The position numbers and the translations under genes are program-made. 50,529 bases of DNA. Source: Solobacterium sp. (GTDB lineage Bacteria; Bacillota_I; Bacilli_A; Erysipelotrichales; Erysipelotrichaceae). This document shows, in pieces, positions 27,245-37,815 of the stretch. The notes below the pieces were generated by a model. The model saw only the letters and a list, made by a program, of their open reading frames with translations, had not been told where the DNA came from and made no database searches. The stretch covers positions 1-50,529 of the forward strand of contig JAILGV010000168.1 of NCBI GenBank assembly GCA_024696355.1. Direction: 5' to 3'. The first letter of the stretch is position 1; each line of letters starts with the position of its first letter.

Positions 27245-27315
27245 TCATATTATCTGAATTTGTCAAAAATATTTTTTCCTTTAAATTACTTATTTAATGT
27301 GTTAACATACATAGG

Positions 27316-27534
27316 AAATCGATGACGAAGTCGAGTAGTGTTTCAATTTCGTATCAAGAGAGCAGACGGCCGGTGCGAGTCTGTTATGAAGGAAACATGA
27401 AGCTGCTTCTGAGAGCACCCAATCCGTGCCGCATATCTGCGTTAAAGATCAATTAAGGTGCGCATGAAAAATGCGAATCAGGATGGTACCGCGCGAACAG
27501 CGTTCCTGTATGTTTCAGGAACGTTTTTATTTAT
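27316..27534 (+). promoter_or_regulatory. Alanine T-box riboswitch of alaS
   Basis: A tRNA-sensing leader. The conserved T-box AGGATGGTACCGCG is at 27480-27493 and the Stem I element GGTGCGAG at 27372-27379. A GCT alanine codon pair lies in the putative specifier loop (27402-27407) before CTGAGAG. A terminator follows: CGTTCCTG (27501-27508) pairs with CAGGAACG (27516-27523), then TTTTTATTT. Uncharged tRNA-Ala would favour the antiterminator and alaS expression. The promoter is probably TTGTCA (27260-27265) with an imperfect -10. Confidence 0.9.
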
Positions 27535-34900: not shown

Positions 34901-35368
34901 ATGGCAGATAACAAGATCTTTGTCACAGAAGAAGGCCTTAAGAAACTGCAGGATGAATATGATCATCTTGTCCACGTAGTACGTGAGGAAGTAAAAGCTG
35001 AACTGAAGGAAGCGCGTTCCCTCGGTGACCTTTCCGAAAACGCCGACTACGACGCCGCAAGAGACAAGCAGGCTCAGGTTGAATCCAGAATCGTTGAACT
35101 GGAACTGATGCTCAAGAATTATGAAATCATCAATACAAAGGGCGGTTCCAAAACAGTTCATATCGGTTCAACAGTTCAGATTCAGTTCCAGGATACGATG
35201 GAGGAAGCGACATATACGATTGTCGGTTCAACTGAAGCTGATCCTCTGAACGGAAAGCTTTCCAATGAAACACCGCTGGCGCTTGCCATTATGGATAAGA
35301 GAGCCGGGCAGACTGTTGAAGTCAACGTAAAGAATCCGTATTCTGTTGTGATTGTTTCCGTAAACTGA
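34901..35368 (+). CDS. greA: Transcription elongation factor GreA
   Basis: Stimulates RNA cleavage by backtracked RNA polymerase. The 155-residue length is usual. The N-terminal coiled coil (residues about 12-75) carries the tip acidic pair in DLSENADYDAARDKQ, and the C-terminal FKBP-like domain contains GKLSNETPLALAIMDKRAGQ. AAGGAG lies upstream. Its transcript runs into the comEA hairpin 22 bases later. Confidence 0.97.
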   Translation: MADNKIFVTEEGLKKLQDEYDHLVHVVREEVKAELKEARSLGDLSENADYDAARDKQAQVESRIVELELMLKNYEIINTKGGSKTVHIGSTVQIQFQDTMEEATYTIVGSTEADPLNGKLSNETPLALAIMDKRAGQTVEVNVKNPYSVVIVSVN

Positions 35369-35389
35369 GGAAATCATAAAAGAATGACT

Positions 35390-35438
35390 AAAAAATAAGC
35401 AGGAGGTTTCATTCAGATGAAACAGATGCTTATTTTTT
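35390..35438 (+). promoter_or_regulatory. Terminator-like hairpin enclosing the comEA ribosome binding site and start
   Basis: Two nested perfect helices: AAAAAATAAGC (35390-35400) with GCTTATTTTTT (35428-35438), and GTTTCAT (35406-35412) with ATGAAAC (35417-35423) around the loop TCAG. The SD core GGAGG (35402-35406) lies in the internal loop and the inner stem; the ATG is the first triplet of the inner 3' arm. A T-rich tract (TTTTTTG) is the outer 3' arm. The structure could end greA transcription and block comEA translation. Confidence 0.6.
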
Positions 35439-35893
35439 GTTTTCTGCTGATTGTTTCTTTCGGAACGGATATGCATCAGAAGAAAATCAGTGATCTGCAG
35501 AAAGATACGATCAGTGTAACTGTGGAAGGTGCCGTGGAAAACGCAGGCACGATTCAGCTGGAACATTACAGTACCGTGCAGGATGTCATAGACAGAGCAG
35601 GACTTAGTGAAAACGCAGATATCAGTTCTATCAATCCTTTATATCCTGTAAATGACAGGGATATTCTGATTATTCCCGAGAAAAAGACAGATGAAGAACT
35701 TCCGAGGATTTCGATCAATACCGGAGACATTGAAGCACTGACACTTCTGCCGGGAATCGGTGATGCAACAGCCGAAAGAATAATTCTGTACAGGGAATCA
35801 AACGGCAGCTTTCAGATACCAGAAGACCTGATGAATGTAAAAGGCATCGGTCCGGCCAAATTTGAAAAACTGAAAGATCTGATATGTCTTTAA
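35417..35893 (+). CDS. comEA: ComEA-like DNA-binding competence protein
   Basis: A 158-residue protein that binds incoming DNA at the membrane in transformation. An N-terminal hydrophobic segment (LIFCFLLIVSF) anchors it, followed by an SLBB beta domain (ISVTVEGAVENAGTIQLEHY) and a C-terminal helix-hairpin-helix pair (LTLLPGIGDATAERIILYRE; LMNVKGIGPAKFEKLK). The start lies inside a hairpin. It overlaps comEC by 10 bases, so the two form an operon. Its presence with a ComK-like regulator suggests competence. Confidence 0.9.
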   Translation: MKQMLIFCFLLIVSFGTDMHQKKISDLQKDTISVTVEGAVENAGTIQLEHYSTVQDVIDRAGLSENADISSINPLYPVNDRDILIIPEKKTDEELPRISINTGDIEALTLLPGIGDATAERIILYRESNGSFQIPEDLMNVKGIGPAKFEKLKDLICL

Positions 35894-37815
35894 AAGCAGC
35901 AGCGGAGCATTCGGTGCTTCTGTCGGCAGTTCTGTTCCTGTTTCTCGTCTGCAGAAGCAGAATGCCTCTGACGGCAATGCTGTGTCTGATCATATTCTGG
36001 AGATTAAGGACAAAAGACAGATCATGGATCATAGTGACTGCGGTTTTTATTATGCTTCTGATTCCGAGGTGGAATTCTCAGTATCCGGAAATCTCCGAAG
36101 GCAGGGTGGTATCTCTCAGCAGAAATTATGCGGAAATAAAAAACGGAAGAACTAAAGTGATCATGTATACGGATAAACTGCCTGTTCTTGACAGTTATGT
36201 CAGTTTTGATCCTGTTTTCTCTAAGATCAGCAGCGGCAGCGGATTTTACAGTTTTGATTTTCAGAAATACTGCAGTCAGAAGGGAATCCGGTATTCGTGC
36301 CGCAGCAATAACTGGATACAGGTCAGAGATTCGCACACAGTCAGAGGATACCTGCAGAAGAGAATCAGAAAAATCAATGATGCGGAAACGAGAAGCATAA
36401 CAGCACTTGTGCTGCTGGGAATCAGAAGTGATGAGACGGGATTCAGAAGTCTTCTGAATGACAGCGGTATTTCATGTGCTTCATTCCTGGCTCTGCTGAA
36501 TTATGTTCTGAAGTACTTCATGTTTGAAGACAAAAGAAAAAATACAGTCTTTGCGGCAGCTGTACTGCTGGGCATCATTTATCATTTTCCTTGTATACTT
36601 GTGCTGAGAATCATTTTCAGTATTCTTGACCGCACCGGCCTTGCGTCCCAACAGAAAACGGGTATGGGACTGAGCATAGCCATGATGATTTTTCCGCATG
36701 CTGCATTTTCCGCATCGTTCCTTATTCCTGCAGTCTTCAGATATGCAGGATGTTTTTCCGTACAGAAAAAGACCGCATCCTTGTACCTCGGAATGATTGT
36801 CCAGTCGGTTCTGTTTCATGCTGTCAATCCCGGTGAAATGTTATTGTGGCCTTTGATCTATCCGGGTATGGGATTCATGTGGCTGACAGCGCTTCTGCAG
36901 ACAGTTTCAGGATGGCACCGGGCGGCTCCGTTTCTGATTTTTGACAGAATTATGACCGTATTTTCGTATACGCGCATCACCGGAAGTATTCTCGGCTTCG
37001 GCCTGCCTTTTTATGTTCTTTTGTGCATCAGTGTGATTCAGTCGGAATATCATCTGCAGATCTGGACGGCATTTTTTCTGTTTTTCCAGATCTTCGGGCT
37101 TTTTCACCCTCTTGCAGAAATCACTTTCATTAATGTGGGGCAGGGAGACTGCATATTGATCAGGGAACCTTTGAATACAGAAAACTACCTGATTGATACA
37201 GGCAGGCCTTCTGCGCTTGATTCTGTTGAAACATACCTTGATGCCAGGGGAATCCGTAAAATCAATACATTGTTTATTACACATGCGGACAGTGACCACA
37301 GCGGGAATATGGAATATATTGCAGAAAAATACAAAGCGGAAACAGTCACGGAACATCAGAAAATTTATCAGAACGGGAGACAGATTTTTTACGATTTGAA
37401 TGAAATTGACGATGATGATGAAAACAGGAGTTCACTGGTACATTTCCTGACTCTGAACGGACTTGATATCCTTCTGACAGGTGACGCGGATGAACAGACC
37501 GAAAGACAGATTATAAGAAAATACAATAATGTAGACTGTGATATTCTCAAATTATCGCATCACGGAAGCCGGACCGGAACATCGGAAGTATTTCTGGATG
37601 CAGTCAGGCCGGAGCTGGCGGTTGTGTCAGCCGGAAGTTATTCACTTTATCATCATCCGCATCCGGAAGTTACCGGCAGGCTTGAAACACGGCATATTCC
37701 TTATCTGACAACGCGTACGGAAGGGGACATATCGGTTATCTGCTTTCCGTTCTTTAATCTGGTGCTGACATCAAACGGAACATTTTCATTCATCAGACAT
37801 TCTGTCATCAGCTGA
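35884..37815 (+). CDS. comEC: ComEC/Rec2 DNA uptake channel
   Basis: A membrane channel that passes single-stranded DNA. The 643 residues comprise an N-terminal OB-like soluble part, a Competence domain with about eight to ten helices in the middle (residues about 170-410), and a C-terminal metallo-beta-lactamase domain with metal motif HADSDH at 467-472 and HHGSRTGTSE. It is shorter than the 776-residue Bacillus ComEC. The MBL domain is thought to degrade the non-transported strand. It starts 10 bases inside comEA. No terminator was seen after it. Confidence 0.93.
   Translation: MSLKAAAEHSVLLSAVLFLFLVCRSRMPLTAMLCLIIFWRLRTKDRSWIIVTAVFIMLLIPRWNSQYPEISEGRVVSLSRNYAEIKNGRTKVIMYTDKLPVLDSYVSFDPVFSKISSGSGFYSFDFQKYCSQKGIRYSCRSNNWIQVRDSHTVRGYLQKRIRKINDAETRSITALVLLGIRSDETGFRSLLNDSGISCASFLALLNYVLKYFMFEDKRKNTVFAAAVLLGIIYHFPCILVLRIIFSILDRTGLASQQKTGMGLSIAMMIFPHAAFSASFLIPAVFRYAGCFSVQKKTASLYLGMIVQSVLFHAVNPGEMLLWPLIYPGMGFMWLTALLQTVSGWHRAAPFLIFDRIMTVFSYTRITGSILGFGLPFYVLLCISVIQSEYHLQIWTAFFLFFQIFGLFHPLAEITFINVGQGDCILIREPLNTENYLIDTGRPSALDSVETYLDARGIRKINTLFITHADSDHSGNMEYIAEKYKAETVTEHQKIYQNGRQIFYDLNEIDDDDENRSSLVHFLTLNGLDILLTGDADEQTERQIIRKYNNVDCDILKLSHHGSRTGTSEVFLDAVRPELAVVSAGSYSLYHHPHPEVTGRLETRHIPYLTTRTEGDISVICFPFFNLVLTSNGTFSFIRHSVIS

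Follow-up and report, generated by a model that had tools for sequence, protein, structure and literature searches.

The start of comEA in the stretch of Solobacterium sp. DNA analysed here (the window, 50,529 nt in its entirety) lies within a hairpin that is a real, conserved RNA element. Judged by its evolution across the genus, this hairpin is most likely an intrinsic terminator that keeps transcription from upstream genes out of comEA. We consider it probable that the whole arrangement is a compact insulated start, in which an intrinsic terminator covers the comEA start and is bypassed by the gene's own sigma-H-type promoter. The genes concerned are the following.

34901–35368, + strand: greA, the upstream housekeeping gene (NF001263 GreA, 183 bits vs. 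a cut-off of 145; Pfam GreA/GreB domains)
35417–35893, + strand: comEA (HHH and SLBB domains; TIGR00426; NF045978)
35884–37815, + strand: comEC-like gene whose start overlaps the 3' end of comEA (TIGR00361, E 1.5e-36, under its cut-off)

The window also carries a T-box leader (Rfam RF00230, 110 bits) at 27313–27510 on the + strand.

A conserved hairpin at the comEA start

Positions 35370–35450 were folded with RNAfold and compared with 200 shuffled sequences. The minimum free energy was −22.7 kcal/mol, against −12.5 ± 2.7 kcal/mol for the shuffles (z = −3.75), and none of the 200 was equally stable. The stability of the fold was thus borne out. An earlier reading of the letters alone (the sequence-only reading) had described two nested helices of 11 and 7 bp; the nesting and the 7-bp helix were recovered, but the outer helix has 12 pairs rather than 11. 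The elements of the hairpin are listed below with the evidence for each.

35390–35401/35427–35438, + strand: outer helix, 12 pairs (RNAfold; covariation, 62 loci)
35390–35401, + strand: 5' arm of the outer helix, AAAAAATAAGCA (fold; covariation)
35427–35438, + strand: 3' arm of the outer helix, TGCTTATTTTTT, encoding the beginning of ComEA (fold; covariation; codon bias)
35406–35412/35417–35423, + strand: inner helix, 7 pairs, loop UCAG (RNAfold)
35406–35412, + strand: 5' strand of the inner helix, GTTTCAT (fold; weakly conserved)
35417–35423, + strand: 3' strand of the inner helix, ATGAAAC, containing the comEA start codon at 35417–35419 (fold)
35402–35406, + strand: Shine-Dalgarno sequence GGAGG, internal loop (sequence; fold)
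35433–35443, + strand: U-tract TTTTTTGTTTT, overlapping the 3' arm and extending past it (synonymous codon bias, genus)

Both GGAGG and the ATG of comEA had been placed inside the stem. The AUG is indeed paired, within the inner helix, but GGAGG lies almost entirely in the internal loop and only its last G is paired. The stem has only 3–4 G-C pairs at its top. Since its base is AU-rich and the loop is long (∼20–25 nt), termination may be partial. The site was missed by a simple terminator scan, whose limit of 3–8 nt on the loop excludes it.

Of 70 genomes from this genus, nearly all contained comEA, and the start region of the gene was aligned from 62. RNAalifold predicted one helix across these 62 loci, enclosing the Shine-Dalgarno sequence and the start codon, and both elements lie within the hairpin in nearly all genomes. 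In the alignment, 84.9% of the cells of the 12-pair helix can pair, and 11 of the 12 pairs show changes on both sides. The outer helix covaries strongly in relatives: 64 cells were changed on both sides, compared with 17.9 ± 5.5 in shuffles (0 of 500 as high) and a maximum of 26 in slid versions of the helix, although the relatedness of the sequences inflates such statistics. Arms AAGATAAGCAG/CTGCTTATCTT are replaced by the compensated arms AAGACAGTCAG/CTGGCTGTCTT at one locus (L027), by AACAGACA/TGTCTGTT at two (L039 and L041) and by AGTAAGT/ACTTACT at two others (L059 and L068). The inner helix reaches 7 bp in the window only; elsewhere it has 1–5 bp, slightly above shuffled loops.

Evidence for a probable intrinsic terminator

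The T-rich 3' arm had been taken as a sign of termination. T-richness alone proves nothing, because the arm doubles as code for the hydrophobic signal segment of ComEA, MKQMLIFCFLLIV; it was the choice among synonymous codons that revealed selection. Across the genus, Leu5 of comEA is CTT in 47 of 50 cases (17% background) and Phe7 is TTT in 43 of 43. Phe codons 7–8 comprise 61 TTT and 8 TTC, vs. 25 and 23 at codons 10–20 (p = 1.6e-5), and Leu codons 8–9 are mostly TTA or TTG where the usual codon is CTG. The hydrophobic segment explains the general T-richness but not these synonymous choices, which argues that the U-tract, including the part past the stem, is under synonymous selection.

The second line of evidence is the exchange of the hairpin for separate terminators. 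All seven genomes with a canonical terminator after greA keep only 4–7 of the 12 pairs, whereas in each of the 55 genomes that lack such a terminator 9 or more are retained (Fisher 2e-9, a value inflated by relatedness, independent loss events numbering ∼3). A ComEA tree from which the hairpin columns had been excluded needs three changes to account for the presence of a separate terminator and the loss of the hairpin, and well-supported branches force at least two of these changes. In two genomes another gene lies between greA and comEA; the hairpin stays with comEA there and retains 11 of 12 pairs. This pattern of loss and retention suggests that the hairpin shields comEA from any gene upstream of it and is no longer required once a plain terminator is present.

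Control of transcription read-through, one of two roles suggested by the sequence-only reading, therefore appears well supported in its terminator-like form, by the covariation, the U-tract codons and the loss exactly where another terminator is found. As in ordinary intrinsic terminators, the stem is followed immediately by a U-tract, and the element is evolutionarily interchangeable with ordinary greA terminators. It differs from them in three ways: the following gene has its Shine-Dalgarno sequence and start codon in the loop, the 3' arm is part of that gene's coding sequence, and the gene's promoter would lie upstream of the terminator.

A putative sigma-H-type promoter before the hairpin

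Motif searches by EM were run separately on comEA spacers (cut before the arm), comGA upstream regions and dprA upstream regions. Earlier EM motifs had been rejected, one being greA coding sequence and the other the hairpin arm with T-tracts, and both regions were then masked. The comEA spacers yielded the words GGAATT and NNATAAA; comGA and dprA separately gave the same two words, and the GG-to-ATA distance was 22 nt at all three genes. In cross-scoring against 154 control upstream regions, drawn from 400 kb of stretches from four relatives, models built on one gene ranked the other genes above the controls (p = 1e-3 to 1e-10). The dprA motif was far stronger than those of 20 random control sets, and the comGA motif alone was borderline (1/20). 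Eleven of the 54 hairpin genomes scored fell below the 95% control level for the promoter motif. In the window, the candidate promoter is as follows.

35369–35374, + strand: −35-like word GGAAAT (first block of the EM motif of comEA spacers; related words at comGA and dprA; genus alignment)
35388–35393, + strand: −10-like word CTAAAA (second motif block; a poor word in the window, where relatives have GAATA, CTATAA or CAATAA)
35398–35401, + strand: predicted comEA transcription start, inside the 5' arm (7–10 nt after the −10 word)

The position of the motif is fixed relative to both hairpin and gene. In the 54 hairpin genomes, the T position of the −10 word precedes the core of the arm by 1–2 nt and the start codon by 20–25 nt; the distance to the start codon is alike at comGA and dprA. 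Because a transcript is expected to start 7–10 nt after the −10 word, the predicted comEA start falls inside the 5' arm. Among genomes without a separate terminator, hairpin and promoter motif are most decayed in G034 (L224:3968–5239), where comEC is apparently shortened and an IS200-like transposase gene lies behind it. In the sister family, no convincing sigma-H motif was found upstream of comEA.

A SigH-like sigma factor of ∼200 aa gave a weak, mostly full-length match to SigH in most of 13 genomes and some match in all 13; these proteins score far under the NCBI SigH cut-off. The gene follows cysS-mrnC-trmH in the genome of the window (G000) and lies between trmH and secE-nusG in G066, surroundings that match the Bacillus sigH neighbourhood. 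We infer that the comEA promoter depends on this SigH-like factor. The factor itself (L207:3665–4270 in G000, and others) is highly divergent between species, with 24 to 67 bits vs. TIGR02859, and the factor and the −10 words (CTATA vs. GAATA) may have changed together.

The published Listeria sigma-H promoters are AAAGGAATT-N11-GGCGAAT for comEA and AAAGGATTT-N11-GAAGAAT for comGA, located 22 and 19 nt from the gene, respectively (PMC4754846), and sigma-H of L. sakei increases comEA and comGA transcripts (PMC3364868). The spacing of the genus motif equals that of these Listeria promoters (PMC4754846). The Listeria monocytogenes and Lactobacillus sakei promoters share with ours the pattern AGGAAT, N11, GNGAAT, the targets comEA and comGA and a short leader; the motif described here is looser (CTATA or CAATA besides GAATA) and the sigma protein is divergent. 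The passages of these accounts considered here make no mention of a hairpin over comEA (PMC4754846; PMC3364868).

Proposed mechanism

Genomes without the hairpin have the order greA, terminator, promoter, comEA, whereas those with it have greA, promoter and then the terminator enclosing the start codon. The latter order would presumably work only if the promoter transcript starts inside the terminator. Median hairpin energies are −16.2 kcal/mol in the read-through RNA vs. −7.8 kcal/mol in the predicted transcript, and in genomes without the hairpin −7.5 kcal/mol already in the read-through RNA.

We propose that RNA polymerase coming from greA, or from any upstream gene, would transcribe both arms and terminate in the U-tract, and that comEA-comEC would be kept off by this termination of upstream transcription. 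A sigma-H-type competence promoter between greA and the hairpin would start a transcript inside the 5' arm. Such a transcript, lacking the lower part of the arm, could not form the terminator and would be translated from a leader of ∼15–20 nt. The covarying helix, the selection on the U-tract, the substitution by separate terminators and the shared promoter motif at a fixed distance were computed; from these we infer termination itself and the comEA start site.

In the transposase genes of IS10 and IS50 and in gene e of phage T4, a hairpin that forms only in long transcripts from outside hides the ribosome site, and transcripts of the gene itself, which begin within the 5' arm, escape the hairpin. 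The comEA arrangement would share this escape by a start inside the 5' arm. It differs in that termination is better supported here than occlusion of the ribosome site, and in that the gene is a chromosomal competence gene. The literature searched held no direct precedent under either a terminator overlapping a start codon or transposase read-through protection. The arrangement is most likely a new variant of known read-through insulation, with the comEA promoter positioned to bypass the terminator.

Alternative explanations

Insulation could act on translation only, as in IS10 and T4 gene e, with the ribosome site hidden in the read-through RNA and little or no termination. We judge this unlikely. 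In nearly all genomes the hairpin does enclose the Shine-Dalgarno sequence and AUG, and complements of AUGAAAC are slightly enriched in the loop, but the median cost of opening positions −16 to +16 did not differ: 17.9 kcal/mol with the hairpin and 17.5 kcal/mol without it (p = 0.09). Opening energy was therefore rejected as evidence for translational gating. Translation control would also have no need of synonymous selection on the U-tract past the stem, and separate terminators replace the hairpin. Gating at translation initiation, the other role that had been suggested, thus found no specific support, the opening cost being no higher and the inner helix being long in the window only. The hairpin may nonetheless hide the ribosome site.

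A regulated switch, in which transcription reaches comEA from upstream and the stem is opened by a factor or RNA to permit read-through and translation, would fit a conserved, covarying helix that encloses the start codon; we regard it as quite unlikely. The intergenic region contains one conserved helix in total, with no second helix or alternative pairing, and no Rfam family matches it. Genomes with a plain terminator ahead of the promoter have moreover all lost the hairpin, and with it the supposed switch. Attenuators and riboswitches likewise have a terminator-like hairpin near a gene start that overlaps the ribosome site, but this intergenic region showed neither an alternative antiterminator helix nor an aptamer or a leader peptide. 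The model has no need of the stem-opening factor or RNA suggested by the sequence-only reading, and there is no sign of one; expression from the gene's own promoter, with its predicted start inside the 5' arm, is the better-supported route.

There is little probability that the element is a plain greA terminator overlapping comEA by chance, with comEA expressed from another promoter or by partial read-through and the motif unused in the way proposed. Covariation, U-tract codon bias and loss alongside separate terminators would be expected of such a terminator too, and the −10 word of the window is weak. Against this, the hairpin remains next to comEA where another gene intervenes, the spacer motif is common to comGA and dprA at one spacing, and the arm begins a fixed 1–2 nt from the −10 word. 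It is most improbable that the symmetry represents a DNA operator or merely results from an A-rich leader and T-rich signal-peptide codons: the T-rich arm does encode a hydrophobic segment, but the compensatory changes largely refute this explanation, and the synonymous codon bias and the rarity of such hairpins at 126 control starts also speak against it.

Wider occurrence and implications

Insulation by a terminator that is bypassed from within may extend to other competence genes. A covariance model searched against 24 genomes gave comEA as the best or near-best match and no strong second family; the matches G000:C67 (E about 0.01) and G003:C63 (E 0.002) proved to be ordinary terminators. 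A weak match in the genome of the window (G000:C32, L220:1230–1270) is the prepilin peptidase gene after tsf, whose start lies inside an 11-bp terminator-like hairpin, ATGAAGCAGGA/TCCTGCTTCAT followed by TTTATCTT. A possible sigma-H-like motif is present upstream of this gene. The dprA start of G062 (L172) and G084 (L179) lies inside a 10-bp hairpin, AAGAGGCAGG/CTTGCCTCTT followed by TTGC; there is a T-run after the hairpin, and a separate terminator after the upstream rnhB-like gene is absent. A comparable hairpin score occurred at 1 of the 126 control starts, which has no U-tract. The design was absent from comGA and from most prepilin peptidase genes of the other genomes examined.

Tentatively, with somewhat more doubt than confidence, we suggest a recurring design in which a terminator overlapping the start codon senses the origin of the transcript, stopping read-through RNA and passing RNA from the nested competence promoter. 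Several competence genes would be shielded in this way from housekeeping read-through: comEA across almost the entire genus, dprA in two relatives and, in the genome of the window, the prepilin peptidase gene. In the sister family, the gene preceding comEA (L073–L092) is ruvB-like. An ordinary terminator there frequently extends straight into the Shine-Dalgarno sequence or start codon of comEA, and hardly any space is left for a promoter between the two.

If the proposed mechanism is true, a gene for a rare developmental state can lie ∼50 bases behind a housekeeping gene without leakage, and a single short element combines the terminator and promoter with the ribosome site and start codon. Terminator finders that require short loops and an intergenic position miss such elements. 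For this little-studied genus, the shared promoter motif of comEA, comGA and dprA predicts a sigma-H-type competence regulon, and the trigger of DNA uptake becomes a testable question.
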